Shown here one piece after another: positions 1,135-18,356 of a stretch of DNA of 33,332 nucleotides (position 1 is the first letter of the stretch; every line of letters starts with the position of its first letter). Below the pieces are notes generated by a model that was not told where the DNA came from, ran no database searches, and saw only the letters and a list, made by a program, of their open reading frames with translations. The DNA is from Pseudomonadota bacterium (lineage in GTDB: Bacteria; Pseudomonadota; Gammaproteobacteria; Steroidobacterales; Steroidobacteraceae). The stretch spans positions 1-33,332 of the forward strand of contig JANXQL010000140.1 of NCBI GenBank assembly GCA_025356815.1, read 5' to 3'. Position numbers and translations under genes: made by a program.

Positions 1135-2301
1135 GTGGACACACGCGATCATTTAACGACGAACCTTGTCGCCGGTGCTTTGACCAGCACCCACTTGAAC
1201 ATCCGCACGCTGATGCCGCTGCTGCTCGCCGTGCTTGCGCAGAGCAGCGGCTTCGGCGAAGCGCACCTGGGTGATCTGGGCGCAGCCTATAGCGCCGGCG
1301 CAACCATCGCAGCGATGACGTCGGTGCTGTGGATGCGCGGCCTGCGGATGCGCCTACCAGCCGGGCTGTTGCTCGGCCTGGGCCTCGTCGGTCTGGGCGG
1401 GACTCTGTGGGTGCGCGATTACGCCGGCTTGCTGCTGCTGTTCGTGCTGGCCGGCATTGGCCACGGCGGGGTGTTCGCGCTCATGATCGCGCTGCTGGCG
1501 CGAACCGACGATCCGAACCGCTCGTACGGCTGGCAGTGGTGCCTGGGCAGCGTGCCGGGGGTCGTGCTGGTGTACATGGCGCCTGCCTTGACTACGCCCG
1601 AGAACGCGTTGTGGATGAACTTTGGCTTGATACTCGTCGTCAACGCCCTGACCGGCATCGTCGTGGCGCGACTGCCAGTGCGTCTGCCGGCGCTGGCCGC
1701 TCAACCATCCCTCACCAGTGGTATCGGCGGCGGCCCCGGCTGGCCGGTGTTGGCGGGGCTGTTCGCGGTCTTCGCGATCTACTCGGGTGTGACCGGCGGC
1801 TGGGCCTTTCTCGGCCGCATCGCTGTCGCGCAGCAGCTGAATGGACAGTACGCCGGACTCGTGCTTGCGGTCGCGACGGCCGCATCCAGCATCGTCTCGC
1901 TGCTTGCAGGCGAACTCGGTAATCGCGGCGCACGACCGGCGTCAATGATTGCGGCCGTCGTCGTCATGCTACTGAGCTTCGGGCTGCTCGCGTCGTGCCC
2001 GGGACGGCTGGGCTACGGGGTCGGGGCGATCGTGGCGATCGCGCTCGCGGGCTTCGTGCTGCCGTTCGGCCTCGGGCTCGTCTCGCGCCTGGACGCGACC
2101 GGCAGGACGGCCGGCTTGCCGGCAGCAGCGCTGGGCATTGGTGCGATCACCGGGCCCGCACTCGCCGGTCATGTCTATCAGGCGCAGGGCCCGGTTGCGA
2201 TGCTCACCGTGGCCGGCGCCTCCGCAGTCGTGGGCCTGCTGGCATATCTGGGCGTCTATGGCCGCGCTTTCCCCCGCGGACTCACCTTGACTGTGCCTTG
2301 A
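1135..2301 (+). CDS. MFS transporter
   Basis: A 388-residue, very hydrophobic protein with about eleven or twelve membrane-spanning stretches in two halves, joined near residues 180-200 by a loop without hydrophobic character. This is the architecture of the major facilitator superfamily. After the predicted second helix there is a short basic loop (WMRGLRMR) like the MFS A-motif loop, but the full G-x3-D-R/K-x-G-R consensus is not present. Start: GTG 1135 with GGGGA just upstream; no ATG gives a better N-terminus. It lies between the aldolase-family gene and the amidohydrolase on the same strand and probably carries the substrate or product of one of them across the inner membrane. Transport direction and substrate cannot be told from sequence. 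Confidence 0.8.
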   Translation: MDTRDHLTTNLVAGALTSTHLNIRTLMPLLLAVLAQSSGFGEAHLGDLGAAYSAGATIAAMTSVLWMRGLRMRLPAGLLLGLGLVGLGGTLWVRDYAGLLLLFVLAGIGHGGVFALMIALLARTDDPNRSYGWQWCLGSVPGVVLVYMAPALTTPENALWMNFGLILVVNALTGIVVARLPVRLPALAAQPSLTSGIGGGPGWPVLAGLFAVFAIYSGVTGGWAFLGRIAVAQQLNGQYAGLVLAVATAASSIVSLLAGELGNRGARPASMIAAVVVMLLSFGLLASCPGRLGYGVGAIVAIALAGFVLPFGLGLVSRLDATGRTAGLPAAALGIGAITGPALAGHVYQAQGPVAMLTVAGASAVVGLLAYLGVYGRAFPRGLTLTVP

Positions 2302-2326
2302 CGGGCGCGCAGGCGGCCGCTAGCGT
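2298..2326 (+). promoter_or_regulatory. Possible sigma-70-type promoter for the amidohydrolase gene
   Basis: TTGACG (2298-2303, five of six to the -35 consensus) and TAGCGT (2321-2326, weak -10) are separated by exactly 17 bases. The -35 element overlaps the stop codon of the transporter gene. Transcription would start near 2333, about 37 bases before the ATG at 2370. The -10 is poor, so the gene may equally be read through from upstream. Confidence 0.35.
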
Positions 2327-2369
2327 GCATCGCGGCCGATCTACGGCGCTCTGTCGGGAGTGCCGTTGC

Positions 2370-4391
2370 ATGCCGAGCCTGTACCGAGTCCTGTGCATTT
2401 TGGCGGCGAGCGCGGCCATGCCGCTGGCCGCCGCGGCGCCTCTTCCACCGGCTGACCTGGTCATTCGACACGCACGCATCTACACGGCTGACGCTGCGCA
2501 TTCGATGGCGCAGGCGCTCGCTGTGCGTGACGGTCGGATCCTCTTCGTCGGCGCCGATCGGTCGGCCGCGGCCTACATCGGTCCACATACGCAGTTGCGC
2601 GATGCTGGCGGGCGGCTGGTACTGCCGGGGCTCATCGGCGCGCACCTCCATCCTGCTGGTATCGTGGACCTCGATGTGTGCGACCTGCGCAGCAAGCCCC
2701 ACTCGCTGCGCAAGTTGACCGCGTTCGTACGCGGCTGCATCGACCGATACCATGTGCCGGCGGACCAGTGGGTCAACGTCCGGCTGTGGAACTACACCGA
2801 CGGCAACCAGCCTGATGCGCAGCACCCCACGTTGCGGGCAGCGCTCGACCTCGCGTCCATCACTCACCCGATCCAGTTGATGGGCAACGATGGCCACCAT
2901 GGGGCCTTCAACAGCGTCGCCCTCGCCCGGGCAACCAACGCTGCGGGTCGCGTGGTAGGCTTTTCAAAAGCGACGCTATCGTCCGACTTCGAGGCGATGC
3001 GCAAGCTGATCGGTGTCGATACGAGGGGTGAGCCCAACGGCACCGCCAACGAGGAGGCCACCACAGCACTCGGCGCTCCGGACCTCATTTCCGTCGACTT
3101 TGAGGAGGTGATGCGGGCGCCGGGGCGCGTCACACGGCGTCTCAACAGCGCCGGGATCACCGGCATCCTCGATGCCGACGTGCCGCCGGCGCGGCTTGCG
3201 ATGTATGACGCCCTCTATGCGCGCGGCGAGCTGACGGTGCGCGCATCGCTTGCGCAATTTTATGATCCGGATGCGCAGCGGACGGCGGATGGGCGGCCGG
3301 ACTGGGATGCCATGCTCGCCATGGCGACGGCGACACGCGCGAAGTACGCCGGCCACCCACTGATCCGGGCAGGCGTGGTCAAGCTGTACGCCGACGGCGT
3401 GATCGAGGGCAACCCGTACGCGATTCCGCCCACCCTGCCCGAGTCGGCCGCGCTGCGACCCTATCTGCAACCCATCTTTGCGACCGGCGCGGATGGACGG
3501 CTCGCGGTGACCGGCTACGTCGACGCCGATGGCACCCCGTGTCGTGCGGTACTTGCGAGCCCGAGTGATTATCAAGGTGCCGCGGCCGCCGGTGAGTTCC
3601 TGCGCGCGCACGGATTCCACCCCGCCCAGTGCGCCACCTCGAGCGGACAGCTTCAGCATGAGCGCGCCGTCATTCTCGAGTTCGCCCGTCGCTTCCACAT
3701 GGCCGGCTTCGAGCTGCACATCCATGCCATCAGCGACGCTGCCGTGCGCGCCGCGGTGGATGCAATCGAGGGCGCCCGGGCGGCCGATGGGATCAGCGCC
3801 CAGCACGACGCGATCGCGCATGCCCAGCTGGTGCATCCGGACGACGTGACCCGGATCGGCCGCGATCGGCTGTATCTCGCGATGACCTATTCATGGATCT
3901 ACGCCGACGCAGCCTACGACATCAACGTCGTGCCGTTCTACGACCGCGTCCGCGGCGGCAGCCTCGCGGCACTGCACCCGGCCGATGGCTACTACGAGCG
4001 CAACGCCTACCCGGTTCGTTCGCTGAGGGATGCAGGTGCCATCCTGGTCGCGGGATCGGATGCGCCCGTGGATACCCGTGATCCCCAGCCTTTCGTGAAC
4101 ATGGCCAGTGCCGTGACTCGTGCCGCCAAGGGATTGGCACCGCTCAATCCGGCCGAACGCATAGGGCTGCGCGACGTGCTGGACGCCTACACGATCCGCG
4201 GCGCCGAGTACCTGCATCTGGCAAGCGATGCCGGGTCCCTGGAAGTGGGCAAGTCGGCAGACTTCGTCCTCGTTGACCGGGACATCCTGGCGCTAGCCGA
4301 CGCGGGTAGGGTGCGCGAAATCGCGCGCGCGCGCGTCCTCGGAACCTGGTTCCGGGGAAAGCAGGTCTACTCGTCGCCCGGCCGGCGCTGA
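2370..4391 (+). CDS. Secreted amidohydrolase (amidohydrolase_3 / YtcJ-like)
   Basis: A 673-residue metal-dependent hydrolase of the amidohydrolase_3 group. The N-terminus (residues 1-23) is a Sec signal peptide ending in an alanine-rich cleavage region, so the enzyme acts in the periplasm. Metal-site features in order: AHLH (His92, His94; the preceding Asp usual in DxHxH is Gly here), KLYADGV with Lys338 in the position of the carboxylated lysine, HIHAISD (His450, His452), and GSDAPVD (Asp564) near the end. A C-terminal beta-sandwich segment (GSLEVGKSADFVLVDRD) closes the fold. Start: ATG 2370, with GGGAG at 2356-2360. The frame is open further upstream, but that part overlaps the transporter gene and is not protein-like. 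Family members cleave varied C-N bonds, so the substrate is open. It ends 3 bases from the convergent GNAT gene. Confidence 0.88.
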   Translation: MPSLYRVLCILAASAAMPLAAAAPLPPADLVIRHARIYTADAAHSMAQALAVRDGRILFVGADRSAAAYIGPHTQLRDAGGRLVLPGLIGAHLHPAGIVDLDVCDLRSKPHSLRKLTAFVRGCIDRYHVPADQWVNVRLWNYTDGNQPDAQHPTLRAALDLASITHPIQLMGNDGHHGAFNSVALARATNAAGRVVGFSKATLSSDFEAMRKLIGVDTRGEPNGTANEEATTALGAPDLISVDFEEVMRAPGRVTRRLNSAGITGILDADVPPARLAMYDALYARGELTVRASLAQFYDPDAQRTADGRPDWDAMLAMATATRAKYAGHPLIRAGVVKLYADGVIEGNPYAIPPTLPESAALRPYLQPIFATGADGRLAVTGYVDADGTPCRAVLASPSDYQGAAAAGEFLRAHGFHPAQCATSSGQLQHERAVILEFARRFHMAGFELHIHAISDAAVRAAVDAIEGARAADGISAQHDAIAHAQLVHPDDVTRIGRDRLYLAMTYSWIYADAAYDINVVPFYDRVRGGSLAALHPADGYYERNAYPVRSLRDAGAILVAGSDAPVDTRDPQPFVNMASAVTRAAKGLAPLNPAERIGLRDVLDAYTIRGAEYLHLASDAGSLEVGKSADFVLVDRDILALADAGRVREIARARVLGTWFRGKQVYSSPGRR

Positions 4392-4394
4392 CGC

Positions 4395-5036
4395 CTATCG
4401 CCGCCGATGAACCATGCGGCGATGGTCGGCGACCGTGGCCGCAGCCGTCGACAGGCGCGACCGTCGCAGTAAGAGGGACTCGAAGCCCAGACGCAGATAG
4501 AGAGACTCGGCACGCGAGTTGGTGACGGCCACGTCCAGGGCGACGTAGTCGTGCAGCGCGTCCTGCCGTCGTTCCATCAGGTACCCGATCAAGGCGCTAC
4601 CGATGCCCATGCCACGGGCAGCCGGGGCGACGCCGAGGTGGCACAGGTAGAGCTCGCGCGGCCGTGGTGGGCGGATTACCGATTCGACCCGCAGCCCCCT
4701 TGCGATCACGCCCAGTCCAGAAAGCACGCCGTAGAAGCCGAGGATCTGCTTCGCGGCAGCCAGCGTGAACCGCAGCGTCTGTCGGCCGTCGAAGACTGCG
4801 CCTGCGCCCACGATGGCGCCCCCGACCACCGCAACGTCGTGGCTCCGGTAGCTGAATTCGCCAACAGCATGCGCGAACGCATAACGCAGGAACTGCTCAG
4901 CACGGCCTGCGCGTCCCCGACCGAAGACGTAATCGAACGCGGCAGGTCCCGAGCTGTAGATCAGGGGCACGACCGCGTCCGCATCGGCCGCCGTCGCGGG
5001 CCTGAACGCGATGGCAACGTCGGTGAGCCCGTTCAC
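4395..5036 (-). CDS. GNAT family N-acetyltransferase
   Basis: A 213-residue GCN5-related acetyltransferase that would transfer an acetyl group from acetyl-CoA to an amine. The acetyl-CoA-binding motif A is clear: strand LYLCHLGV, then the pyrophosphate loop R-G-M-G-I-G and its helix, around residues 130-155. Motif B is also present (AVTNSRAESLYLRLGFE), with the Tyr that usually acts near the active site. It carries no signal peptide and is cytoplasmic. Start: GTG 5036, because no better start fits the conserved N-terminal strand (IAFRPATAADADAVV). It lies 28 bases after the beta-helix cytochrome gene on the same strand and could be the last gene of that transcript, although its function has no evident link to it. 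The acceptor substrate is unknown. Confidence 0.85.
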   Translation of the reverse strand: MNGLTDVAIAFRPATAADADAVVPLIYSSGPAAFDYVFGRGRAGRAEQFLRYAFAHAVGEFSYRSHDVAVVGGAIVGAGAVFDGRQTLRFTLAAAKQILGFYGVLSGLGVIARGLRVESVIRPPRPRELYLCHLGVAPAARGMGIGSALIGYLMERRQDALHDYVALDVAVTNSRAESLYLRLGFESLLLRRSRLSTAAATVADHRRMVHRRR

Positions 5037-5064
5037 GCGCCGTGATGCGTTCGGCGGTGGTACG

Positions 5065-6609
5065 TCACGGTCGGGCTGGCACCGGCTTTGGTGGCGCCAC
5101 GGTCAACAGGTATTGCGCAACCGCGAGGCGCAGGTCCGCGTTCAAGTGGCTCTGCGGTGGCATGGGCGGGAAATCCGCGCGCTTCTTGACGGGATTGGCG
5201 ATGTAGTCGGCGATCCCCTGGGCGTTGCCGAGGTACAGCGCCTGGATGATCTGCGTCGGGGGGCCGACCATGCGGACGTTGTAGGCATGACAGCCCGCGC
5301 AGACGGACGAGTAGATTAGTTTGCCGCGATCCGCCGTGGTCAGTGCCCGCGGCGCGGCCGGCTTGTCCAGCAGGTAGGTCGCGATATCGGCGGACGAGGT
5401 ACGCTTGCAGGCTCCCCAGCCGCCGATATTCAGCGCCTTGAGCGTGCCGGCAGCGGCTACGCAGCTGCCGCTGCCGCCGCCGACCGCGACCAGGTCGGGC
5501 CCCTCGCGCGTGAGCCCCGCCACCATCAGCGCGCGCACTTCTTTGATCGGATCGGAGCCGTTGTTGTCGAACAGGTTCCACAGCACCGAGACCCGGTCCG
5601 GGTTCGGATCCGCTTCCGGATCTGGCGTGATATTCGCGAACGACTTGTGGTCGGCGACGATGATGCCGGCGTTCTTGTTGTCGCGAATGAAGTTGTTCTC
5701 GATGATGACATCATCCGCGGCCATGACGATGATGCCAGTACCGCTCGGCACACCGGAGACGATCGAGCCCGGCGCACCAAAGTTCTTGTGGTTGTTCGCG
5801 ACGACGAAGTTGTTGCGGATCACCACGTCGAACGTCGTCTTGATGGGCAGCCCCGGCGTGATGAAGGCGAGGATGCCGCCGGCATTGTCATACGCCGTGT
5901 TGTTTTCGACGATCGCGTGTCGCGAGTTTTCGATTTCGATGCCGGCGACGTTGCCATGAACTTCATTGTGGGCGACCTCGATGTTGTCGCACATGCCGAC
6001 GTAGATCGCCGCGTCCTCGATGCCCGTCAGTTCGTTGTATTCGATTAGGCCGTTCTGGGCGAACTCAGGGAAGATTCCGTAGACACCGGAGTTCGCAATC
6101 CGGTTGTGCCGTATCACGAAGTTGTTGCCGGCCTGGCCCATGATCGCGTTGCCCTTGTAGTTCACGATCTTGAGGTTTTCGACCCGCACGCCGTTTCCCG
6201 AATACAGCACCGCGTCGTTGCGCTTGCCTTCGCCGTCGAAGGTCGGCCAGTCGCTGCCATGGATGACGCCGACCAGGGCGATGTCATCCTTGTCGATGTA
6301 GACGGTCTGGTGATAGACGCCCGGCATGATCTGGATGGTGTCGCCGGGCTGTGCCCTGGCGACCGCATCCTGGACCGAGTCCTCAGGCTTGACGACGAGG
6401 ATCTGCCCCGCCGCGCGGCCGGGGTCGACAAGGTAGCCGGGCACCGCGCCTGCCGCACCGCGCGCGCCGGCCAGCGCCATGGAGGTCGATTCCGCCGGCG
6501 CCGACGGCGCAGTCACCATCGTATGGCGCGTGTAGATATGGCTGGCGCCGGCCGCGACGATCGCGACCATCGCAATCACGGCGAATCGCTGCAGTTGTTT
6601 CTTGTCCAA
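5065..6609 (-). CDS. Right-handed parallel beta-helix protein fused to a C-terminal cytochrome c
   Basis: A 514-residue exported fusion. Residues about 6-23 form a signal sequence or signal anchor. Residues about 70-360 are a right-handed parallel beta-helix of the NosD/CASH type, with repeated turns such as 'NNFVIRHNRIANSGVYGI' and 'GIEIENSRHAIVENNTAYDN'. Residues about 420-514 are a mono-haem class I cytochrome c, with CAGCH (Cys437-His441) and a PPMPP segment likely to give the axial Met. Start: TTG 6609, chosen because GGAG precedes it by six bases and the signal sequence follows at once; the ORF extends upstream but only into the peroxidase gene. It lies 19 bases after the MauG-like gene. 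Beta-helices usually bind or cleave polysaccharides, so a haem domain beside one suggests electron transfer to or from a bound polymer or partner. That role is inference. Confidence 0.85.
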   Translation of the reverse strand: MDKKQLQRFAVIAMVAIVAAGASHIYTRHTMVTAPSAPAESTSMALAGARGAAGAVPGYLVDPGRAAGQILVVKPEDSVQDAVARAQPGDTIQIMPGVYHQTVYIDKDDIALVGVIHGSDWPTFDGEGKRNDAVLYSGNGVRVENLKIVNYKGNAIMGQAGNNFVIRHNRIANSGVYGIFPEFAQNGLIEYNELTGIEDAAIYVGMCDNIEVAHNEVHGNVAGIEIENSRHAIVENNTAYDNAGGILAFITPGLPIKTTFDVVIRNNFVVANNHKNFGAPGSIVSGVPSGTGIIVMAADDVIIENNFIRDNKNAGIIVADHKSFANITPDPEADPNPDRVSVLWNLFDNNGSDPIKEVRALMVAGLTREGPDLVAVGGGSGSCVAAAGTLKALNIGGWGACKRTSSADIATYLLDKPAAPRALTTADRGKLIYSSVCAGCHAYNVRMVGPPTQIIQALYLGNAQGIADYIANPVKKRADFPPMPPQSHLNADLRLAVAQYLLTVAPPKPVPARP

Positions 6610-6628
6610 GGTGGTCTCCGTCGCGGGA

Positions 6629-7774
6629 TCAGGTGGCCGGCGGCAATCCCGAAGGCACGGCCGTCGGGGTTGCCGGTCGGAACGATTCGTCACTCAGGGT
6701 CTGCAGGAAGTCGACCAGTCGGTCTAGCTCTCGGGACGACAGCTTCGGCTCCCAGATGTGCCAGTGCAGGTGCAGCGTCTCGCCGCGCGGCACGGCGTGG
6801 CCTCGGCCACCGGTATAGAAGGCGACCGTGTCGCGCAGGGTCGCGAACTGGCCGGCGTGCCCGTAGGGTGCGGTCAACGCGACGTTGCGCAGGCTCGGAA
6901 TCCGGAATCCGCCGCGCAGCGCGCTGTTTCCCGGCGTTGCACCAGCGCCGGGATCGAACGTGCGACCGGGTGGCTCGGGCATGCCGATGACGGCGACCTG
7001 CTGGTTGGTGAACAGCGGTGGCGTATGGCACTCAGCGCAACGGGCGACGAAGGAGCGAAAGACGTTCAGGCCTTCCAGCTCCGGCGCGCTGAGCGCATTG
7101 GCGACCCCATGGGCATAGAGGTCGTAGCGGCTGTTGAGCGAGACGAGCGATGACTCGAATGCTGCCAGCGCGGAATAGACCTGCTCCGAGGAGATGTTCG
7201 CAGGCCCGGCAGGAAAGGCGTCCGCGAACAGTCTGCGATAGGCCGGAATCCCGTTGAGGGTAGCGACGAGCTTCGCCGGCGTAGTCCCCATCTCCAGGGC
7301 GCCGTAGAGGGGGCCACGCACCTGCTCCTCCAGCGAATGGGCGCGGCCATCCCAGAAGAAGCGCTGCAGGAAGCCGACGTTCCACAAGCTAGGCGCATTG
7401 CGACTGACCTCCTGTCCGCCGACGCCGAGACTGCGAGACCGCACGTCCGCGAAGGCGCTCGCCGGACGGTGGCAGTTTGCGCAGGCGAGCTTCCCCGTGG
7501 ACGACAGCACCGGGTCGAAGAAAAGCAGCCGGCCGAGATCGATCTGCTCGGGGCTGAAGCCGTCACGGAATTTCGGCAACCCGCTCTTCAGGCCGCCGAC
7601 CCCCGCGTCGGTCACCGATCGATAGGCTTGGTAGGGGGTCGTCAGCCGACAGACCCGCTCGCGCAGCTCGAAGCTCGCCGGGCACTGCTGCGAGAGCGCG
7701 ATGCCATCGACGGTCAGCGCCTGGACGGAACCGGTCAGGGATGCGCCGAGCAGCAGCCAGAGCCGAAGCCTCAC
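6629..7774 (-). CDS. Di-haem cytochrome c peroxidase / MauG-family protein
   Basis: A 381-residue periplasmic protein with a signal peptide (residues 1-19) and two c-type haem motifs, CANCH (98-102) and CAECH (246-250). Between them lies the hallmark FFWDGRAHSLEEQ segment, whose Trp141 is in the position of the Trp that bridges the two haems in this family. The family reduces hydrogen peroxide or, as in MauG, oxidises a partner protein or small substrate through high-valent haem. Near the C-terminus a His/Trp-rich stretch (HLHWHIWEP) stands out. Start: GTG 7774, whose GTGA overlaps the stop codon of the upstream cytochrome gene by four bases, so translation is probably coupled. Position between two other cytochromes and behind a TonB receptor favours a substrate-specific oxidase over general peroxide defence. 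Confidence 0.9.
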   Translation of the reverse strand: MRLRLWLLLGASLTGSVQALTVDGIALSQQCPASFELRERVCRLTTPYQAYRSVTDAGVGGLKSGLPKFRDGFSPEQIDLGRLLFFDPVLSSTGKLACANCHRPASAFADVRSRSLGVGGQEVSRNAPSLWNVGFLQRFFWDGRAHSLEEQVRGPLYGALEMGTTPAKLVATLNGIPAYRRLFADAFPAGPANISSEQVYSALAAFESSLVSLNSRYDLYAHGVANALSAPELEGLNVFRSFVARCAECHTPPLFTNQQVAVIGMPEPPGRTFDPGAGATPGNSALRGGFRIPSLRNVALTAPYGHAGQFATLRDTVAFYTGGRGHAVPRGETLHLHWHIWEPKLSSRELDRLVDFLQTLSDESFRPATPTAVPSGLPPAT

Positions 7775-8400
7775 GGCCGCAGGCTGGCCGCATAGGCGAT
7801 GACATCACGCACGGTCTCGGCGTCCGGCAGCATGGTCGTGATGGTGCGCATCTGAATCCCGTAGCGATCGTCGGGTTGGTAGCCGCGCTGCCCGCTCTGG
7901 AATGCAGCGAACTGGCGCGCCAGATAAGCCTCCGGCAGGCCCGCGAGCCGAGGTGCGCCGAGCGCCGGATTTCCCTCGCCGCCGCTGCCGTGGCAGGCGC
8001 CGCAGACGGCATTGAAATAGTTCCGGCCATTGGCAGTGGTCCGACCGGGCGTTCTCTGGACGCCTGGCTTGAGGGTGGACAGGTAGGACGCAACCGCGGC
8101 TCGCTCTGTGTCCGACGAGAGAAGCGGCGCGCCCGCGGAACGCATGCTGGTGCCGTACTTGTCGCCGGGCTTCGCGCCGCGGGCGCCGCTCGCGAACGAC
8201 TGCAGTTGGCGCTGCAGGTACGCCGCATGAAGCCCCGCGAGTGGTGGCGCACCGGTCGATGCGACGCCCTCGGCTGCCACCCCGTGGCACGCGACACAGC
8301 GCAAGTAAACGCTTCGGCCGTCGGCGGCCACCGCGGCGCCCGCAGCGAACAGCACCGCTGCGAGCGCGGGTACCAGCAGGGCGTGCTTAGAACGAGGCAT
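7771..8400 (-). CDS. Di-haem cytochrome c (c4-like)
   Basis: A 209-residue periplasmic cytochrome with a signal peptide (residues 1-26, ending AAVAA) and two similar class I haem domains, CVACH (35-39) and CGACH (133-137). Each has the 'YLxRQLxxFxSGxRG' segment typical of cytochrome c4, followed by a Met-containing loop (GTSMRS and GIQMRT) that should give the sixth haem ligand. This arrangement matches two-domain c4 cytochromes that carry electrons to terminal oxidases. Start: ATG 8400, with GGAG four bases upstream. This start overlaps the end of the TonB receptor gene by 14 bases; an upstream in-frame ATG at 8415 adds only five residues. The gene is very likely the electron acceptor or donor for the two redox proteins encoded after it. 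Confidence 0.9.
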   Translation of the reverse strand: MPRSKHALLVPALAAVLFAAGAAVAADGRSVYLRCVACHGVAAEGVASTGAPPLAGLHAAYLQRQLQSFASGARGAKPGDKYGTSMRSAGAPLLSSDTERAAVASYLSTLKPGVQRTPGRTTANGRNYFNAVCGACHGSGGEGNPALGAPRLAGLPEAYLARQFAAFQSGQRGYQPDDRYGIQMRTITTMLPDAETVRDVIAYAASLRP

Positions 8401-10834
8401 GCAGCTCCACGCCATAGCGGCGTGGCGCGTTCACCGACGCGATCGGCGTGCCGAATACCGACGCGGTGATGTTGTTGATGCCCGTGACGTAGCGCTTGTC
8501 GAGAAGGTTCGATCCATAGGCGGACACGCTCCACCTGCCACCCGGGCTGCGCCAGCTGATCCGGGCATCCGTCTGGTTCTGCGCCACAGCGTACGGGAAC
8601 GGCGCCTGCGGCTGGCAGCCCCGCGTCACGGTCGACTCCTTGTTGCAGCGAGTCGCGCCGCGGTAGCTGTGCGCGAGGAACAAGTCGATGCTGCCGTGAT
8701 CTGCGAGCGATATGACGTAGTCCACGGTCGCTGCGAACGACAGGCTTGGCTCGCCGGTCGGCGCACCTGCCAGGTTTGCGTACGCCAGCAGGTCAGCGTC
8801 TTGCAATCCGAATGCCGCGCCTTGCTGCAGCAGCGCCGACGACTCGAACTTCGTGTAGGTCGAATTAATGTAGGCGGCGGACAGGCCTAGGGTCAGCGCG
8901 TCGATCGGCTGCCAGCGGGTATCAAGATCAATGCCATAGGCCTTCTGATCGCTCGACGAGACAGTGTACTGCGGAATCAGCCCCTGACCGCCAGTGAGCA
9001 CCAGCGACTGCTTGTTCTTGTACGCGTAGTAGTAAGCCGCACCGTTGAACAGAACGTGTGCGTCGGGGAAGGTGGTCTTGAAGCCTAGCTCGTAGTTCCA
9101 GACATCCTCGTTATCGTACTTGCCGTTGATCGAGACTGCATCGAAGCCGCCAGGCGTGAAGCCCTTGGCGATCGAGGCGTAGACCATCTTATTCGGGTCG
9201 AGCCGGTAGTCGAGTACCACGCGCGGGCTGGTGTCGCTCCAGGAACTCTTCGCCGAAAAGGGCGTGCCCTGCGCGGCGATTCCCCGTGGATCGCTGAAGA
9301 TCAGGTTGGGCACCGTGATGTCCACGAGGCCGCCGGTGGCCTCGAGAATCGCGGCGCCGTAGGCGTCGAGCTGCGGGGCCACGCGCCACGGCGCCACCCA
9401 AGTAAAATCCTTCGTGTCGTGCGAGTAGCGCAAGCCGGTGGTCAGGTTCAGCTTGTCGGTCAGATGCCAGATCACGTCGGCGAACACGCCGAGTGACTTG
9501 AAGCGCCCGTCATCGCGCATCGCCTCGTTCCACGTCAGGCCGAGCAGGTTCACCGGGATCCCCATCTCGGTGAGCGCCGCGCTGGTCGGCCCGAATACCG
9601 CCGGGCAGCCAGCGTCCGGTCCCAGCACGCACAAGTGTGTGAACAGCGTGTCGACGCCGTCGGTATACAGGTGCGTATCGCTGGTCTGCTGCGCGTGTTC
9701 GGAGGAATAGCTTATGCCTGCAACCCAGTCGGTGCGCGAGGTGCGGCCTGACAGCTTGAACTCCTGGTACCAGGCGTTGTTGTGCTCGATGTTGTTGGTA
9801 TCGAAGTACGTCGCGATGCGGTTGGTGCCGTCCTCGTCCTCGCGGTTGGTGGTGCGGAACTCGCGCCAGTCAGTCGTGGAGGATAAGTCGAAGCTATCAA
9901 AGTGGCGGCTGAAAGACAGCATGAGGTCATCGAACTTGCGCGTTTCCTGGTTGCCCACGACATCATTGTAGATCGGCGCCGTGATGGGGTTGAGGAACGT
10001 CGCCCCGCTCGGGTCGGCCGGATACACAGGCAGGCTTCCCTCGGCTGGCACCGGCACGAGGCCAATGGCAACGCGTGCGAGCTGATTCACGGCATCGTGG
10101 TTCCAGCTCAACAGCAGCTTGGTGTCCGCATCGATGTCCCAGCGAAATGCAGCCCGCGCGGCCCAGTTCTTTTCCGGGTTGAGCTTCTGGCCGGTGGCCG
10201 CATCCTTCAGAAAGCCGTCCGACTCGTTGCTCAGTGCGTTGAACCGCAGCGCCATGCCGCTCGCCAGCGGCACGTTCAGCATCCCCTCGACGCGTCGCTT
10301 GCCTTCGCTGCCGAAACGCGCGTCGACGCTGCCTTCGAGCAGGTCGGTGGGTTTGCGGGTGATGATCGAGATCGCGCCCGCCGCACTGCTTCGGCCGAGC
10401 AGAGTGCCCTGCGGACCCTTCAGCACCTCTATGCGCTCGACGTCGTTGAAAGCAAGGAACGACGCGCCGGAGCGCGCGGCGTAGACGCCGTCGACATAAA
10501 CGCCGACGGCAGGATCGGTGCCGACGCCGAAATCCGACGCGCCGATGCCACGCAACTGGTAGTGCGGCTGGGTCGGGCTGTCACCGGAGACGACCAGCCC
10601 GGGCACCCACTTGTCCAGCTGCGCCATGTCCTCGGCGACGTGCTTGGACATGGACTCTGTCGTCAGCACCTGCACCGCGATCGGCACATCCTGCAGCTTC
10701 TGTTCGCGACGCTGGGCGGTCACGACGACCTCGCCGAGCAAGTCGCTCCCGACCGGCGCGACCTGGGCATGGGCTGCCGGTACGCCGAGACAGGCAGCAT
10801 AGATGGCGATAGACAGTTTGTTGTTGCGAAGCAT
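8387..10834 (-). CDS. TonB-dependent outer-membrane receptor
   Basis: An 815-residue outer-membrane transporter. A signal peptide (residues 1-23, ending AHA) is followed by a plug domain starting at 'GEVVVTAQRR', which also looks like the TonB box. The plug contains the usual 'QLRGIG' and 'VERIEVLKGPQGTLLGRSSAAGAI' regions. The remainder is a 22-stranded-type barrel ending in a terminal Phe (HASF), the outer-membrane assembly signal. It resembles receptors for large organic substrates, rather than FecA types, because no N-terminal signalling extension is present. Start: ATG 10834 with GGGGGA about seven bases upstream; the longer reading to 10855 lacks a ribosome site. It heads the cytochrome/peroxidase/beta-helix cluster and lies divergent from a TetR-type gene. 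The ligand is unknown. Confidence 0.93.
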   Translation of the reverse strand: MLRNNKLSIAIYAACLGVPAAHAQVAPVGSDLLGEVVVTAQRREQKLQDVPIAVQVLTTESMSKHVAEDMAQLDKWVPGLVVSGDSPTQPHYQLRGIGASDFGVGTDPAVGVYVDGVYAARSGASFLAFNDVERIEVLKGPQGTLLGRSSAAGAISIITRKPTDLLEGSVDARFGSEGKRRVEGMLNVPLASGMALRFNALSNESDGFLKDAATGQKLNPEKNWAARAAFRWDIDADTKLLLSWNHDAVNQLARVAIGLVPVPAEGSLPVYPADPSGATFLNPITAPIYNDVVGNQETRKFDDLMLSFSRHFDSFDLSSTTDWREFRTTNREDEDGTNRIATYFDTNNIEHNNAWYQEFKLSGRTSRTDWVAGISYSSEHAQQTSDTHLYTDGVDTLFTHLCVLGPDAGCPAVFGPTSAALTEMGIPVNLLGLTWNEAMRDDGRFKSLGVFADVIWHLTDKLNLTTGLRYSHDTKDFTWVAPWRVAPQLDAYGAAILEATGGLVDITVPNLIFSDPRGIAAQGTPFSAKSSWSDTSPRVVLDYRLDPNKMVYASIAKGFTPGGFDAVSINGKYDNEDVWNYELGFKTTFPDAHVLFNGAAYYYAYKNKQSLVLTGGQGLIPQYTVSSSDQKAYGIDLDTRWQPIDALTLGLSAAYINSTYTKFESSALLQQGAAFGLQDADLLAYANLAGAPTGEPSLSFAATVDYVISLADHGSIDLFLAHSYRGATRCNKESTVTRGCQPQAPFPYAVAQNQTDARISWRSPGGRWSVSAYGSNLLDKRYVTGINNITASVFGTPIASVNAPRRYGVELHASF

Positions 10835-10944: not shown

Positions 10945-10973
10945 TATATACTGCCTCGCGGCACTCTTGTCAC
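10945..10973 (-). promoter_or_regulatory. Predicted promoter of the TonB receptor/cytochrome cluster
   Basis: On the minus strand GTGACA (10973-10968) is followed after exactly 17 bases by TATATA (10950-10945), a good sigma-70-like pair. Transcription would begin near 10938, leaving a leader of about 100 bases before the receptor ATG. The -10 lies within the near-palindrome GGCATATATACTGCC (10941-10955), so a repressor bound there would block RNA polymerase. Confidence 0.5.
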
Positions 10974-10978: not shown

Positions 10979-10996
10979 ACTCGGGGATCGCCGAGT
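10979..10996. promoter_or_regulatory. Candidate TetR operator: inverted repeat in the divergent intergenic region
   Basis: ACTCGGggatcgCCGAGT has perfect six-base arms, and the central GATC extends the symmetry to 16 of 18 positions. It lies just upstream of the predicted receptor promoter and about 70 bases before the TetR-type gene, the usual place for an operator serving both. Assignment to this regulator is inference from position and symmetry. Confidence 0.45.
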
Positions 10997-11063: not shown

Positions 11064-11717
11064 ATGGCGGAACGTCTCCACGTGGCGCGGACGGCTCGCG
11101 CAGCCCGTACGCAGCGCCGCGGCGATTGGCGTCGCGAGCGGCTGCTGGAGGCGGCCGGCGAGCTGGTCTGCGCCCGGCCGCTGCCGGCGGTGACCTACGC
11201 GGCGATCTGCGCTCGGGCGGGCGTGCCGGCGAGTTCCGCCTATCACTTCTATCGGGATCTCGACGCGCTGTTTCGGGCGCTGCTCCTGTCGGGCCGAGAA
11301 GGGTTCGACACGGCGCTAATGAAGCCGTTGCGCGCTTCGCAAAAGCGATCGTGGCAGGCGGTCGTGGAGGCGCTGGTAGGACGCGCGGCGCACTACAACC
11401 GGACGCACCCGATCGCCGCGCGGCTCGCCATCGGCGGCCACACGCCACCACAATTGAAGCGGCTAGATCGAGACGCGGACAGGGTCCGCGCCGGACTTGC
11501 GCTAGCGGCGCTGGAGAGCCTGTTCGTAGTGCCGCGCATGCGATACAAGCGCCAGGTCGCCTTCGCCGCGACGGAGATCGTCGATGCGGTGTTCACGACA
11601 TCGATGCTCGAGGCGGGTCGGCTCACTTCGGCCTACGTCACGCTCGCCAAACGAGCGGTTGTCGGCTTTCTGGGGCAGTACTTCGGCGCGCGATTGCCGC
11701 GCCGCAGGCAACTCTAG
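11064..11717 (+). CDS. TetR/AcrR family transcriptional regulator
   Basis: A 217-residue one-domain-plus-ligand-pocket repressor. The N-terminal DNA-binding domain (residues about 20-70) contains the TetR helix-turn-helix with the typical end 'AGVPASSAYHFYRDLDALFRALL', where SAYHFYRD corresponds to the conserved 'xxYxYFxxKxxL' recognition helix region. The rest is helical, as expected for the ligand-binding and dimer domain. Start: ATG 11064 gives the normal short N-terminus. The frame is open well upstream, but that stretch covers the promoter region and has no TetR similarity; no strong ribosome site is visible. It is divergent from the TonB receptor cluster and convergent with the SDR operon, overlapping its stop codon by four bases. 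Control of the receptor cluster is the likeliest role. Confidence 0.85.
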   Translation: MAERLHVARTARAARTQRRGDWRRERLLEAAGELVCARPLPAVTYAAICARAGVPASSAYHFYRDLDALFRALLLSGREGFDTALMKPLRASQKRSWQAVVEALVGRAAHYNRTHPIAARLAIGGHTPPQLKRLDRDADRVRAGLALAALESLFVVPRMRYKRQVAFAATEIVDAVFTTSMLEAGRLTSAYVTLAKRAVVGFLGQYFGARLPRRRQL

Positions 11718-12523
11718 CCCGCCTGATAGGTTGCCGTCAGCAGCTTCTCCACCAGAGCCGCCGGCAGGAACGGCTCAAGCGTAACCAAGGCTCGCTGCAC
11801 GGCGGTCGCGGTCGGGTACCGTAGGCGCGGCCGTGGCGCGTCGAGGATGCGACGCACCGTCCGCACGACCGGCTCCAGATTCGGGTTTGCCTGCTCGTCA
11901 CGCGCCATGATCGCAACCGCGCGCAAGGCCCGCGCGTGATACGCCGAAGCGAGGCCGCTCTGCGCCGTCATGCGACGGTGGCCGGTGAACCCGGTGGCAT
12001 AGTCGCCGGGCTCCAGGAGGCTCACGTGAATCCCGAAGGGTCTGGTCTCGATCCGCAGCGCCTCGCTGTAGGCCTCGATCGCGAACTTGCTGGCGCTGTA
12101 GAAGGCCTGGAACGGCAGCGGAATCAGCCCCGCGAGGGAGCTTACGTTCACGATCCGACCCCCGCCCTGCGCCCGCATCAGCGGCAGGACCGCGCGACAG
12201 ACGCGGTGGGTACCCAGGAAGTTCGTCGCCAGCTGCGCGGCCGCCTCCTCCGGCGTTGTGTCCTCGATGGCGCCTGCGATCCCGTAGCCGGCGTTGTTGA
12301 CGACAACGTCGATGCGGCCGGCCTGCTCCAGGATTGTCTGCACGGCGGCGTTGACCGAGGTCTGGTCATCGACGTCCATCACCAGCATGGTGAGCGGGCC
12401 GCCGTCCGTGGCAGGCCGCCGCGAGGTACCGAAGACGCGACCGTGGGAGGTGGCAAGTCCATTCGCGATGGCTTTGCCTAGGCCACTGGATGCACCAGTC
12501 ACCAGGATCACGGCCTCGCTCAT
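11714..12523 (-). CDS. Short-chain dehydrogenase/reductase (SDR)
   Basis: A 269-residue classical SDR that would oxidise or reduce an alcohol/carbonyl using NAD(P). Seen in order: cofactor loop TGASSGLG (9-16), NNAG (76-79), catalytic Ser in NVSS (128-129), and YSASK with Tyr142 and Lys146. The basic pair after the second strand (TSRRP) favours NADP(H). The sequence after the active site (LLEPGDYATGF) is like that of SDRs acting on hydrophobic or steroid-like substrates, but this is not decisive. No signal peptide is present, so it is cytoplasmic, unlike its operon partners. Start: ATG 12523, sharing ATGA with the stop codon of the upstream PLP-fold gene, which indicates translational coupling. 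The longer frame to 12547 is less likely. Confidence 0.92.
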   Translation of the reverse strand: MSEAVILVTGASSGLGKAIANGLATSHGRVFGTSRRPATDGGPLTMLVMDVDDQTSVNAAVQTILEQAGRIDVVVNNAGYGIAGAIEDTTPEEAAAQLATNFLGTHRVCRAVLPLMRAQGGGRIVNVSSLAGLIPLPFQAFYSASKFAIEAYSEALRIETRPFGIHVSLLEPGDYATGFTGHRRMTAQSGLASAYHARALRAVAIMARDEQANPNLEPVVRTVRRILDAPRPRLRYPTATAVQRALVTLEPFLPAALVEKLLTATYQAG

Positions 12524-13806
12524 GCCGACACCGGAAAGGTCGGCCAACGGTCCTTGAGCTCGCCGTCGTCATACACCAGCAGGTCGCCGAACTGCAGCAG
12601 AACCGCCTCGCTCTGGGTGGGCCGCAGGAACACATAGTCGTCCGGCCGAAGCGGGACCCGCCGCGAGCCGGTCAGCAGTTCCTGGTTGCTTGACCGACCG
12701 TACAGGCCGTTGTACTCAAGGCCAGGCGGCGACTCGGGTTCGGCGAGCCAGTGGCCACCGTATACAAAGAAGCCACGCCGTGCGTTGGCATCCATGAGCG
12801 GCAGGACCTTGTCGAGTGACTCGAGTCCAGGAATTTCCAGCGGCTCGACCGTCTTGAGCACCGGCGTGGCGATGAACGCAGCGGCGACGTGATGGGTAAG
12901 CGTCGGCAGGTCGAAGTCACGGGGCTTCAGGAACGCGGAGCCGATGGCAAGCTCGCTGGCCAGCGCGTCGGCAGCATGCATGCGGTAAGTCGGACTGCCG
13001 GCCGCATTGAAGGTGAGAGTCGGAAAGTCGGCCGCCGGTACACGTGCACGGACGACCTCGCGTGCGGCCGAGTAACGCGCGATCGCGTCGGCGTAGGCCT
13101 TGGCGGGGCGCGGCATCTTCGGGACGTGCGGGTCGTAGCCCATCAGTCCCGCGAACTGCAGTTCGGGCGACGCCATGATGGCCTCCAGCGCGGCACCGAC
13201 CGCGGGCGCATCGGCGAGACCGCCACGATGCAGCCCGACGTCGATTTCGAGGTTGATCCGCAGGCGGGTGTTGCGCGCGCGGGCGATCGCGGCGTAGCCG
13301 CGGATGCGCTCCACGCTGTCGGCGAGCCATTGCGGGCCCGGGCTGCCGGCAAGCAGCGGCAGCGCTGCGTCGAGCACCCGTCCGACCTCGAGCGCCGGTA
13401 ACGGCTTGCCCAGCAGCAGGTCGGCGTGCGGGTTCCAGCGGAGTGTGTCGAGGACCATCGGGCCGTTGAAGACCATGCAGCGGTTCGTCTGCAGACCGGC
13501 GGTGATCGCATCGAGCAAGCCCGGCACGGGCAGCGATTTCACGACCACCCGAACCGGCATCTTCGTGCCAGCAAGGGTCGCGCGTACGGCCTGGATGTTC
13601 GCGCGGAGCCGAGCGCGGTCGATGATCAGGACCGGGCGACCGATTCCCGCTCGTGCGAGCGCGCTCGACAGGCGGCTGAAGTACGCATCGTGCGGCCCGC
13701 CACGATCTGGCCTGCGCAGCGCAAGCACGCTTGCGCCCGCTGCGACCGCGAGGGCACCGCCAATCACGGCGCGGCGACTGAGGCGAGGCAGGCCTGATTC
13801 AGACAT
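12520..13806 (-). CDS. Tat-signal PLP-fold protein (alanine racemase N-terminal / D-threonine aldolase-like)
   Basis: A 428-residue protein of the fold-type III PLP family shared by D-threonine aldolase, D-serine dehydratase and alanine racemase. Lys90, in VVVKSLPV, is in the position of the PLP-binding lysine at the end of the first barrel strand. Later barrel segments (INLEIDVGLHRGG, LMGYDPHV, FNAAGSPTY) fit. The C-terminal domain ends with 'RPTQSEAVLLQFGDLLVYDDGEL'-type sequence, in which the His and Cys that bind zinc in D-serine dehydratases are not apparent. The N-terminus, with twin Arg in SRRAVIGG and a hydrophobic stretch to residue 30, is a Tat signal or anchor. Start: ATG 13806, overlapping the FAD oxidase stop by eight bases. 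A lactone-oxidase-like gene beside such a PLP protein also occurs, as I recall, in actinobacteria. Its reaction is unknown. Confidence 0.8.
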   Translation of the reverse strand: MSESGLPRLSRRAVIGGALAVAAGASVLALRRPDRGGPHDAYFSRLSSALARAGIGRPVLIIDRARLRANIQAVRATLAGTKMPVRVVVKSLPVPGLLDAITAGLQTNRCMVFNGPMVLDTLRWNPHADLLLGKPLPALEVGRVLDAALPLLAGSPGPQWLADSVERIRGYAAIARARNTRLRINLEIDVGLHRGGLADAPAVGAALEAIMASPELQFAGLMGYDPHVPKMPRPAKAYADAIARYSAAREVVRARVPAADFPTLTFNAAGSPTYRMHAADALASELAIGSAFLKPRDFDLPTLTHHVAAAFIATPVLKTVEPLEIPGLESLDKVLPLMDANARRGFFVYGGHWLAEPESPPGLEYNGLYGRSSNQELLTGSRRVPLRPDDYVFLRPTQSEAVLLQFGDLLVYDDGELKDRWPTFPVSA

Positions 13807-15205
13807 CGCCGAACAGCCGACGCAGGAATGGGTTGAGCAGGCGGCCTTGCGGGTCGAGCTCGCGCCGCACCGCCATCGCCTCCGCCCAACGCGGATACAT
13901 CGGCGCGAGTTCTTTCGCCGTCAGCGAGTGCAGTTTGCCCCAGTGCGGCCGCCCCCCGTGCTTGCGCAGGATCGGCTCGACCAGGTCGAACAGAAAGCGG
14001 TAGTCATCCTTGTAGTACGCATGTACGGCGAGCGACCCGGACGGGCGGTCGTGGAACGGCGAGAGCCAGGCGTCGTCTGGTGCGATCGAGCGCACCTCGA
14101 TCGGGAAGAATACGTCCGGCCGGTATTTCTCGATGGTGGTGAGCAGTTCCTGCAGCGCGGGCATCTGCGCCTCCCGAGGCAGATGGTATTCCATCTCGTT
14201 GAAGCGAATGTCGCGCTCATTCGACAGCAGCTTCCAGGCCTCCTCGACGGATTCCTCCGGCTTGAGCCCGGCCATCGCCGACTGGGCGAGCCGCCGACGC
14301 AGGGGCGTCGCGAATCCCGCCCAGTCGCGCAGCCACTTTAGGTCCAGCAGGACGTCGGCATCTTGCGATTTGCCAGGGGGTTCCGCCGGCCTGTCGGTTT
14401 CGTCGTGGGTCACGGTTGCCGACATGCCGGTAAAGGGTAGCGCGAAGAATTCCGCATTTCGATGGCGCGCACGCAGCGACGGCCAGTCCTCGATCACCTC
14501 TGCGGTCGGACGCACCGCCGTGCGCTTGAAAAGGCGCAGCGACGGCACATTCTGCAGTCGGTAGCGGGTCACGACGCCAAATGCGCCAAGCCCAACGCGG
14601 GCGGCGTCGAAGATCTGCGGATTTTCGCTGTGACTGCAGGTCAGCAGGCCTCGTGCCGGCGTTGCGATTCGCATTTCCATTACCTGGGCGTGCAGCGCAG
14701 CAGAGCGCTCGCCGCTGCCGTGGGTTGCGGTCGCGATTGCACCGCCCAGCGACTGCTTGTTGATATCAGGGAGGTTCGGCATGCACTGTCCAAGGGCCGC
14801 GAGGGCGGGACCGAGTTCCCCCAGCCGCGTGCCGGCCCAGACCGTCGCCTGGTAAGTCGCGTCGTCATGATCGACGATGCCGCTGAGCCCGTCGAGCGAC
14901 AGCAACGTGCCGTCCGTCGGGACGAGGGCCGTGAACGAATGGCCGGCGCCGACGGCACGGACAGGTGCGGGACCACGGGCCAGCGCCACCAGGACCTCGT
15001 CCTCGTTGGCTGGGCCTGCGCGCAGCGCGGGGTATGCACTCTGGATGCCTGACCAGTTGCGCCAGAGCATGCGGCGGTTCGCATCCTGCAGCGGCGGCGC
15101 CGGCGGCTCGGCATCGAGCCGGTGCTGGCGCAGCTTCACGCCCGCCGTCGCGGCGGCCGCGGTGACCGCCGCGCTCACAAGCAGCTTTCGCCGCGACAGG
15201 GTCAT
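13799..15205 (-). CDS. Tat-exported FAD-linked oxidase (D-arabinono-1,4-lactone oxidase / gulonolactone oxidase family)
   Basis: A 468-residue flavoenzyme. Residues 1-22 are a Tat signal (SRRKLLV followed by an alanine-rich core), so it is exported folded with its flavin. The FAD domain (about 45-230) shows VGAGHS, where His89 matches the histidine covalently linked to FAD in sugar-lactone oxidases, and GGAIATATHGSG, the second FAD loop. The C-terminal ALO domain (about 240-468) ends with the family mark PHWGKLHSL. Members oxidise aldonolactones or alditols, passing electrons to oxygen or cytochrome c. Start: ATG 15205 behind GGGGGAGGGG. It shares ATGA with the stop codon of a lipoprotein cytochrome c gene, which makes that cytochrome the natural electron acceptor. 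Confidence 0.9.
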   Translation of the reverse strand: MTLSRRKLLVSAAVTAAAATAGVKLRQHRLDAEPPAPPLQDANRRMLWRNWSGIQSAYPALRAGPANEDEVLVALARGPAPVRAVGAGHSFTALVPTDGTLLSLDGLSGIVDHDDATYQATVWAGTRLGELGPALAALGQCMPNLPDINKQSLGGAIATATHGSGERSAALHAQVMEMRIATPARGLLTCSHSENPQIFDAARVGLGAFGVVTRYRLQNVPSLRLFKRTAVRPTAEVIEDWPSLRARHRNAEFFALPFTGMSATVTHDETDRPAEPPGKSQDADVLLDLKWLRDWAGFATPLRRRLAQSAMAGLKPEESVEEAWKLLSNERDIRFNEMEYHLPREAQMPALQELLTTIEKYRPDVFFPIEVRSIAPDDAWLSPFHDRPSGSLAVHAYYKDDYRFLFDLVEPILRKHGGRPHWGKLHSLTAKELAPMYPRWAEAMAVRRELDPQGRLLNPFLRRLFGDV

Positions 15206-15606: not shown

Positions 15607-15734
15607 CGATGCGCGCTCTACCGCGACGAACGCTCGCTTGTGGGGCGGTGACAATCGCAGCAATCGGCATGCCAACGCAAGCGGCCGCCACCACGACGTC
15701 GCCTGCTGCGGCGCAAAAGCTCCGGGCCAGTAGC

Positions 15735-16889: not shown

Positions 16890-17048
16890 GAAGCCTTCGT
16901 CCGCCAAGGGTCGCCTTCATCGACAGGATAGCAGCCGTCGGGCCGCCGCCGCTGACCTCCCCCGTCCCGGCAGCGTCTGCGGCCGTAGCGCGCACACGTA
17001 GGTAGTTTACGAAAGCGCGGCCGCTGCGAGCGCGAGTTCGCCTCGCGA

Positions 17049-17090: not shown

Positions 17091-17125
17091 GGCCGGCATC
17101 GATTCGTTCAGTTGAGGTGGCGCAG

Positions 17126-18346: not shown

Positions 18347-18356
18347 GCCGCGACCT

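Follow-up and report, generated by a model that had tools for sequence, protein, structure and literature searches.

The window analysed here, a stretch of 33,332 nucleotides from contig JANXQL010000140.1 of a Steroidobacteraceae bacterium (GCA_025356815.1), carries four consecutive genes on its minus strand and a regulator gene diverging from them (Table 1). The receptor stop at 8387 and the cytochrome ATG at 8400 overlap by 14 bases (ATGCCTCGTTCTAA), the cytochrome stop and the GTG of the MauG-like gene share the GTGA at 7771-7774, and 19 bases separate the MauG-like stop (6629) from the beta-helix TTG at 6609; the four same-strand genes, the overlaps and the gap described in the original prediction are thus confirmed. 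The gap contains CGGAG, a stretch resembling a ribosome-binding site, and is arranged alike in the relative G008. The receptor ATG at 10834, preceded by GGGGGAA, is also retained in this relative; a second in-frame ATG lies upstream at 10855. A GNAT gene (4395-5036) on the same strand, 28 bases away, was considered as a fifth operon gene and dropped because, among loci L031-L038, it adjoins the unit only in L031 (G008).

Table 1 Features of the four-gene cluster and its upstream region (window coordinates)
Feature	Position	Strand	Remarks
Beta-helix protein with C-terminal c-type cytochrome	5065..6609	-	TTG start; TIGR03805 match
MauG-like di-haem enzyme	6629..7774	-	GTG start; CCP_MauG domain
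Two-haem cytochrome	7771..8400	-	Cytochrome c domains; signal-peptide-like start
TonB-dependent outer-membrane receptor	8387..10834	-	Plug and TonB barrel; unit-linked clade
Promoter-like GTGACA-N17-TATATA	10945..10973	-	Found by eye; conserved in five relatives
Palindrome ACTCGG-N6-CCGAGT, probable TetR operator	10979..10996	.	Conservation
Divergent TetR-family regulator	11064..11717	+	Start probably Met88 (ORF numbering)

Upstream of the receptor, promoter-like elements were recognised by eye on the minus strand, namely GTGACA (10973-10968) and, after 17 bases, TATATA (10950-10945). When six intergenic regions (the window, L031, L032, L033, L035 and L036) are aligned, AACTCGG, TGACAA and GTATA show no variation, and only L035 departs from the others in the second half-site of the palindrome. 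The exact palindrome occurs in five of the six close relatives L031-L036 and is absent from L037 and L038. It is found once in the source genome, as is a reversed control, so its rarity is uninformative and only position and conservation count. The predicted upstream promoter and operator are therefore supported by motifs that relatives keep, although a sigma-70 consensus scan listed no minus-strand promoter. Divergent TetR homologues adjoin the unit in all six close relatives (6/6), and the regulators identified next to units are of the TetR, AraC or LytTR types. The local TetR regulator had been overlooked previously.

An important question is whether these genes belong together. Of 80 loci collected with the beta-helix protein as the only query, 74 could be evaluated, and in 72 of these the MauG-like gene adjoins the beta-helix gene. 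Strong matches to the two proteins pick out an identical set of genomes, 9 of 60 among the relatives and 3 of 274 in the class. The divergence of the two proteins is correlated (Spearman 0.63 over 75 rows, species kinship included), and none of 999 permutations gave a value as high. Exceptions are G178, with a second MauG-like copy lacking a beta-helix gene, and L113, with a beta-helix gene lacking a MauG-like gene. The two-haem cytochrome is present in 46 of 73 loci and was not found in 27 of them at an 85-bit cut-off, which divergent copies could escape. A receptor lies within 2.6 kb of the unit in 37/80 loci, in varying gene order, and none was found within this distance in 43/80, a count that includes loci at contig ends. 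Versions of the unit occur in Proteobacteria, among them Ruegeria pomeroyi, and in Bacteroidota, Marinimicrobia and Myxococcota. Scattered homologues, which the original prediction had set against a common unit, are not what we observed for the adjacent MauG-like and beta-helix genes, and the cytochrome mostly accompanies them, whereas the receptor is attached more loosely and the order differs. The four genes are a genuine, recurrently conserved redox unit of the periplasm, equipped with a dedicated outer-membrane receptor, and the proposed combination of an uptake receptor with a redox part recurs across genomes. No description of it was found in the literature (titles, abstracts and counts, with subscription papers outside the scope), which agrees with the earlier statement that no named system has this combination.

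The receptor falls within the generic TonB barrel and Plug families and scores below the siderophore cut-off TIGR01783 (145 of 223.5) and the haem cut-off TIGR01785 (68.9 of 316.85). Its linkage to the unit is evident from several counts: 24 of 25 unit-linked gammaproteobacterial receptors fall in one clade, receptor density per 10 kb drops from 1.81 at up to 1 kb from the trio to 0.13 at 5-10 kb, and, among the 60 relatives, a strong receptor orthologue is present in 8/9 unit-bearing genomes vs 0/51 others. In G056 the trio occurs without a receptor orthologue. Neighbouring genes, identified for representatives of recurring clusters and for some immediate neighbours, encode aldehyde dehydrogenase, SDR, homogentisate dioxygenase, TPP enzyme, FMO-like and sulfatase proteins. 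These were rejected as a substrate clue for being too diverse, and no substrate can be deduced from them.

The two-haem cytochrome contains CVACH (35-39) with Met86 and CGACH (133-137) with Met184, and we read it as c4-like. The MauG-like protein carries CANCH (98-102) and CAECH (246-250), both conserved in 51 rows (one Cys is read as X in one row), and HWH at 337-339. It belongs to PF03150 (175.3 bits, cut-off 25.6), is strongly similar to bacterial cytochrome c peroxidases and stays below both the MauG equivalog cut-off TIGR03791 (175.5 of 443.85 bits) and the MbnH hypothetical-equivalog cut-off TIGR04039 (207.7 of 362.85 bits). Its Tyr320, conserved in 51/51 rows, aligns to MauG position 294 (3l4m) and to a Tyr of 6e1c, which places a predicted MauG-type ligand at the sixth position of the second haem. 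This Tyr position had escaped earlier attention. A Foldseek search with the structural model, which is of low confidence at residues 241-310 (block means 54-74), where the second haem binds, gave the best E-value for 6e1c (MbnH), the title of which names a MauG-like protein associated with microbial copper homeostasis; several peroxidases had higher target TM-scores, so the search cannot separate the two. BthA also has a Tyr ligand and no known function in the account given in parts of PMC6405878, so that such a ligand is no proof of a protein substrate.

The beta-helix protein has an N-terminal hydrophobic segment and a C-terminal cytochrome c domain with CAGCH (437-441), for which Met483 is the likely axial ligand; the haem motifs and Met ligands of the unit proteins are conserved. 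It is assigned to Beta_helix/TIGR03805 (188.7 bits, subfamily-domain cut-off 141.5), as is the R. pomeroyi homologue (163.2 bits, same cut-off), and it falls short of the NosD cut-off TIGR04247 (64.8 of 300 bits). No characterisation of the TIGR03805 family was found in the literature searched. Both this membership and the likely role of the protein as a target of the MauG-like enzyme had been overlooked. The conserved polar residues K152, Y177, Y203, D208, E225, E227, R230 and K257 are all kept in the R. pomeroyi homologue, and K152, Y177 and E227 are present in 8/8 rows of an alignment including three other TIGR03805-type proteins; clustering of the conserved residues was judged by eye from the strand register. 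W121 is found in 53 of 59 rows and no Trp is invariant, which gives no indication of a cofactor derived from Trp.

Several known systems resemble parts of the unit. Beta-helix proteins of TIGR03805 and di-haem cytochromes of the SO2930 family (TIGR03806) form an established pair with no assigned function. Like the unit, it joins a beta-helix scoring above the TIGR03805 cut-off to a cytochrome, and in Novosphingobium it adjoins TonB receptor, ADH and ALDH genes; the unit differs in its own C-terminal one-haem domain, its MauG-like partner and its two-haem cytochrome. TIGR03806 had no match among the four unit proteins and none in a profile search of the source genome, where the control was likewise silent, and the SO2930 protein has no similarity to the MauG-like protein beyond the haem motifs. 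No MauG-like gene is annotated within the 17 kb surrounding a canonical TIGR03805 protein with an SO2930-type cytochrome; thus, the TIGR03805 fold does not always depend on a MauG-like enzyme. In MbnH/MbnP, a MauG-like di-haem enzyme is also encoded in a pair with a protein partner, but the partner in the unit is the beta-helix cytochrome protein, the MbnH cut-off is not reached, and HWH, present in the MauG-like protein, is missing from the aligned stretch of 6e1c. MbnP (TIGR04052) had no match among the four unit proteins and none in the source-genome profile search, in which control genomes were also silent. A later report is said to describe a Trp-to-kynurenine reaction for MbnP/MbnH. In methanobactin operons, as outlined in parts of PMC3621798, a TonB transporter often adjoins the MbnH/MbnP pair. 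MauG and methylamine dehydrogenase share with the unit the Tyr at position 294 and the idea of an obligate partner (passages of PMC6405878), but the MauG cut-off is missed and no methylamine dehydrogenase occurs among the window proteins scanned. A MauG-like gene is likewise operonic with an oxidase in the mtoX-SCO1-mauG methanethiol oxidase operon (described in parts of PMC5739008), whereas the four unit proteins include no match to such an oxidase or to the SCO1 family.

What, then, does the MauG-like enzyme act upon? One likely target is the beta-helix protein. We tentatively favour, at somewhat less than an even chance, a periplasmic oxidation unit that is induced by its substrate. The MauG-like enzyme would oxidise the beta-helix cytochrome protein as its partner, maturing or driving it, and electrons would exit via the cytochromes. 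A TetR repressor on the palindrome would control a single transcript, and the TonB receptor, judging by family and linkage, would carry a ligand into the periplasm. With H2O2, or with O2 and electrons, the MauG-like enzyme could reach a high-valent di-haem state, as its Tyr position suggests, and would take electrons from the beta-helix cytochrome protein, with which it is constantly paired. The oxidising centre thereby matured or driven would most likely lie among the residues K152 to K257 listed above. The beta-helix protein would then oxidise the imported ligand and probably hand the electrons, by way of the haem it carries, to the two-haem cytochrome and further to the respiratory chain. 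Precedents are the oxidation of preMADH by MauG (passages of PMC6405878), the mtoX-SCO1-mauG operons, where the oxidase cofactor is proposed (parts of PMC5739008), and the MbnP/MbnH gene pair, whose role is called a mystery in parts of PMC3621798. A bolder version, which we consider rather doubtful, is a new quinohaemoprotein-like dehydrogenase: a beta-helix enzyme in which a MauG-like enzyme reserved for this task builds the redox centre out of the protein's Tyr, Lys or Cys side chains (not Trp). Such a dehydrogenase would have an integral cytochrome outlet and, in many lineages, a dedicated TonB importer.

It is possible, though on the unlikely side, that the MauG-like enzyme attacks the imported compound directly, while the beta-helix protein merely binds or presents it and relays electrons. 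Receptor linkage and the catabolic neighbours at some loci would suit a small-molecule substrate. The fatty-acid di-haem CCPs PA2077/PA2078 and RoxA are also periplasmic di-haem enzymes of the CCP superfamily; we know of no beta-helix partner for them. Direct action of such relatives on fatty acids or rubber is described in parts of PMC4496055, but by that description they are larger and set apart by His ligands (axial in PA2077/PA2078), whereas the MauG-like protein has Tyr as in MauG. Conservation of the beta-helix also suggests a role beyond presentation.

Improbable, in our view, is a system for acquiring copper (or haem/iron) along the lines of MbnH/MbnP or CorA/CorB. The MauG-like enzyme would then modify a metal-binding partner and the receptor would import a metal complex, as some TonB receptors do. 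The copper-homeostasis title of 6e1c, the best structural match by E-value, the NosD-like similarity of the beta-helix, and its Met157, Met206 and Met296 (59/59 rows), Cys207 (53) and His231 (57) are consistent with this, but Ser, Asn and Val take the places of Cys207, His231 and Met296 in the R. pomeroyi homologue. The receptor scores below the siderophore and haem cut-offs, the types of the identified regulators also argue against metal acquisition, and so do the SusC/SusD, PKD and aldehyde dehydrogenase genes adjoining some Flavobacterial copies.

The SusC/SusD and PKD genes would instead suit a carbohydrate-active or carbohydrate-binding beta-helix with the haem proteins as oxidative helper, as would a sulfatase-type gene cluster in 4/80 loci (L072, L077, L123, L124; the one member scanned is a sulfatase) and, in L077, a BNR/sialidase-type gene that follows the unit. 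We consider this still less probable: carbohydrate-type neighbours are few and in Bacteroidota, with none by the gammaproteobacterial units examined. Foldseek ranks mannuronan epimerases, alginate lyases and fructotransferases highest for the beta-helix, with target TM peaking at 0.70 in a short alginate lyase. These polysaccharide enzymes match weakly by query TM, however (0.24-0.43 at 9-15% identity among the 50 rows listed), such matches are expected for right-handed beta-helices, and a PDB profile search matched the cytochrome part only, with no sequence match for the helix part. The polymer binding originally predicted for the beta-helix thus gains faint support from generic fold matches and the sulfatase-type cluster, and it is retained because of some Bacteroidota neighbours.

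Peroxide defence, with a cytochrome c peroxidase fed by both cytochromes and with the receptor and beta-helix as passengers, is very unlikely: it would suit the PF03150 membership, the peroxidase similarity and the two cytochromes, but the Tyr at the MauG ligand position keeps a classical peroxidase from being our first choice, and the constant partner is the beta-helix (72/74), not the cytochrome (46/73).

MauG-like enzymes are numerous and, to our knowledge, the partner has been identified for few of them. In this case genome data suffice to name a likely one, and the unit adds a receptor and a regulator. A version of the unit exists in Ruegeria pomeroyi DSS-3 (SPO_RS20595-20610), a genetically tractable marine bacterium; therefore, both the partner question and the role of TIGR03805 proteins are directly testable. 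Should the beta-helix carry a cofactor formed from its own residues, enzymes of this kind would gain a new scaffold.

Linkage between the MauG-like and beta-helix genes was assessed by scanning genome contigs with the beta-helix protein as query, and the 80 best of the 140 relatives obtained were retained; six loci in which the beta-helix frame begins less than 1,400 bases from the locus start were excluded. Among the remaining 74 loci, which are not independent because close species are among them, the MauG-like gene adjoins the beta-helix gene in 72, the other two being L062 (a fragment only) and L113. In 60 related genomes sampled without selection by beta-helix locus, strong beta-helix matches (E of 1e-171 or better) fell in the same nine genomes as strong MauG-like matches (6.6e-182 or better), and weaker matches to the beta-helix protein (E up to 0.001) were found in 10 more genomes, those to the MauG-like profile (up to 1e-60) in two. 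A class-wide draw placed both genes in the same three of 274 genomes, G000 among them (cut-offs 1e-60 and 1e-80), and they are neighbours in all three. The scattering of homologues that would have refuted the original prediction is not seen for this gene pair. The divergence of the pair is also correlated (Spearman 0.63, 75 rows, kinship left in; none of 999 permutations as high). An extra MauG-like copy stands alone in genome G178, and L119 carries two MauG-like genes, the second (8467-9441) after the beta-helix gene.

As contig C204, the window belongs to a 4.0-Mb genome in 207 contigs, probably a MAG.

Genes of the unit and the divergent TetR gene
Feature	Position	Strand	Basis
TonB receptor	8387-10834	minus	sequence + family scan
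Two-haem cytochrome (two CXXCH motifs, two Met conserved)	7771-8400	minus	sequence + family scan
MauG-like di-haem protein	6629-7774	minus	sequence + family scan
Beta-helix protein with C-terminal cytochrome	5065-6609	minus	sequence + family scan
TetR gene, divergent from receptor	begins about 11064	plus	

The 14-base overlap, GTGA overlap and 19-base gap noted among the four genes were all found in the sequence. CGGAG stands upstream of the TTG start of the beta-helix gene; the related genome G008 shares this layout, TTG included, and the L032 and L036 stretches have GTG at that place. Between the TetR and receptor genes lie GTGACA-N17-TATATA and the palindrome ACTCGG-N6-CCGAGT, and the predicted promoter and operator are supported by an alignment of six intergenic regions, in which the promoter-like boxes and palindrome are kept. 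The exact palindrome is present in the window and in five of the six close relatives L031-L036 and absent from L037 and L038; divergent TetR homologues adjoin the unit in all six. Elsewhere, window 11714-20753 encodes an SDR, an alanine-racemase-N protein (with a Tat-like leader by eye), an FAD-linked lactone oxidase, an FMN hydroxyacid dehydrogenase, a LysR-like frame and a tryptophanase-type lyase. All six also occur in L031, from G008, and within the 14-20 kb stretches of L032-L038 only L036 had one (racemase-type). The gene at 29807-33307 encodes a large fibronectin-III protein, part of which resembles a multicopper oxidase.

The four-gene order was conserved only in part: the MauG-like/beta-helix adjacency stood, but the place of the receptor varies by lineage. 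A TonB or SusC-type receptor lies within 2.6 kb of the trio (cytochrome, MauG-like and beta-helix genes) in 37 of the best 80 of 140 loci, 35 of these on the trio's strand, and receptors number 1.81 per 10 kb up to 1 kb from the trio versus 0.13 per 10 kb at 5-10 kb. In the window's genus the receptor precedes the cytochrome gene; in G033 and in Spongiibacteraceae it follows the beta-helix gene, and in Colwelliaceae it stands ahead of an AraC gene and then the trio. In several Flavobacteria the unit is preceded by a LytTR gene and its beta-helix gene is followed by SusC-SusD-PKD. A tree was built from 38 receptors, with SusC-type ones excluded. One of its branches (support 100/100) unites 24 of the 25 linked receptors (within 1.8 kb of the trio) with that of L056, which lies 7.4 kb from its trio; support is 85/79 for the 24 without L056, and L053 is a long-branch exception. 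This clade holds against the sampled receptors, in which the 13 other rows comprise five from the same loci and eight of 22 own-genome paralogues. With up to 16 candidates scored per genome, matches above 800 bits occurred in eight of the 60 relatives, all within the nine unit-bearing genomes; the next best scored 214 bits, and G056 carries the unit without a match above 800 bits.

The MauG-like protein is a PF03150 member scoring under the MauG and MbnH cut-offs. Its Tyr320 aligns to MauG chain position 294 and to a Tyr of 6e1c, a MauG-like protein associated with microbial copper homeostasis; MauG Tyr294 is an axial ligand according to a reference title in PMC6405878, and was mutated according to a PDB title. 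When 50 of 74 MauG-like sequences were aligned with that of the window, Tyr320, Trp131, Trp141 and an HWH motif were each kept in 51 of 51 rows; the aligned stretch of 6e1c lacks HWH. In a structure search, the AlphaFold model, with a pLDDT of 80.9 on average and less over residues 241-310, resembled both 6e1c and bacterial peroxidases and did not set them apart.

The beta-helix protein is well modelled (pLDDT 86.1, pTM 0.83), with an N-terminal helix followed by residues 20-61 below 50 pLDDT. Alignment of 58 of 81 collected sequences with that of the window gave invariant polar residues including K152, Y177, D199, Y203, D208, E225, E227, R230 and K257, and the conserved residues, as judged from strand register, would cluster. 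The Ruegeria pomeroyi homologue keeps K152, Y177, Y203, D208, E225, E227, R230 and K257, with Y136, C207, H231 and M296 replaced; K152, Y177, E227 and N228 are common to all eight rows of an alignment including three other TIGR03805-type proteins. The 58-sequence alignment holds no invariant Trp, which argues against known Trp-derived products. Beyond an SDR downstream of the unit, L100 encodes a second, stand-alone TIGR03805 protein (5315-6460, 281.8 bits).

How might the unit work? MauG oxidises a partner protein (PMC6405878), mauG-like genes adjoin genes of proteins they are thought to mature (PMC5739008), and one is paired with a partner gene in a role called a mystery (PMC3621798). The beta-helix cytochrome protein, as the constant neighbour, is the putative partner or substrate, which the MauG-like enzyme would mature once or drive in every turnover. 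The Tyr ligand is no firm rule for a protein partner, because BthA has one, yet no known partner (PMC6405878). The extra two-haem cytochrome, part of the trio in 46 of the 73 loci that extend 2.6 kb or more upstream (best 80 of 140), suggests sustained electron flow through the unit.

That a specific ligand is imported is suggested by the receptor clade and by the way the TetR gene is placed beside the unit. The identity of this ligand does not follow from the adjoining genes, which in some loci or others include aldehyde dehydrogenases, SDRs, a homogentisate dioxygenase, TPP enzymes, an FMO-like gene, sulfatase-type genes and one for fatty-acid oxidation. In L049, a TPP enzyme above the 5-guanidino-2-oxopentanoate decarboxylase model cut-off directly follows the unit (11523-13178), and an aldehyde dehydrogenase lies on its other side (3550-4929). 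In Arenibacter nanhaiticus (L124), the stretch just before the unit (1756-8393) has four frames that all belong to a single sulfatase-type cluster, the one member scanned being a sulfatase.

Among catalogued systems, MbnH/MbnP, MauG and the TIGR03805/TIGR03806 pair come closest. On Novosphingobium plasmid pABRDHK22, the latter pair adjoins TonB receptor, alcohol and aldehyde dehydrogenase genes, a single example that hints at a broader theme of beta-helix, cytochrome and receptor; two TonB receptor frames flanking an IS5 transposase directly precede the pair there (L128, 3994-7786). R. pomeroyi DSS-3 has the order c-type cytochrome, CCP, TPR protein and beta-helix; an AraC gene lies divergently, and the annotation of the 25-kb stretch covered includes no receptor. 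At a cut-off of E 1e-5, no frame of L031-L126 is homologous to its TPR gene, which lies between the MauG-like and beta-helix genes (L127, 10835-11911). In agreement with the claim that no named system has this combination, the literature searched yielded no paper on the unit. The unit is real, widespread, made of known families and, as far as searched, undescribed; as a variation on the MauG theme, it is new in the kind of protein that is the enzyme's likely partner and in the importer that often accompanies them.
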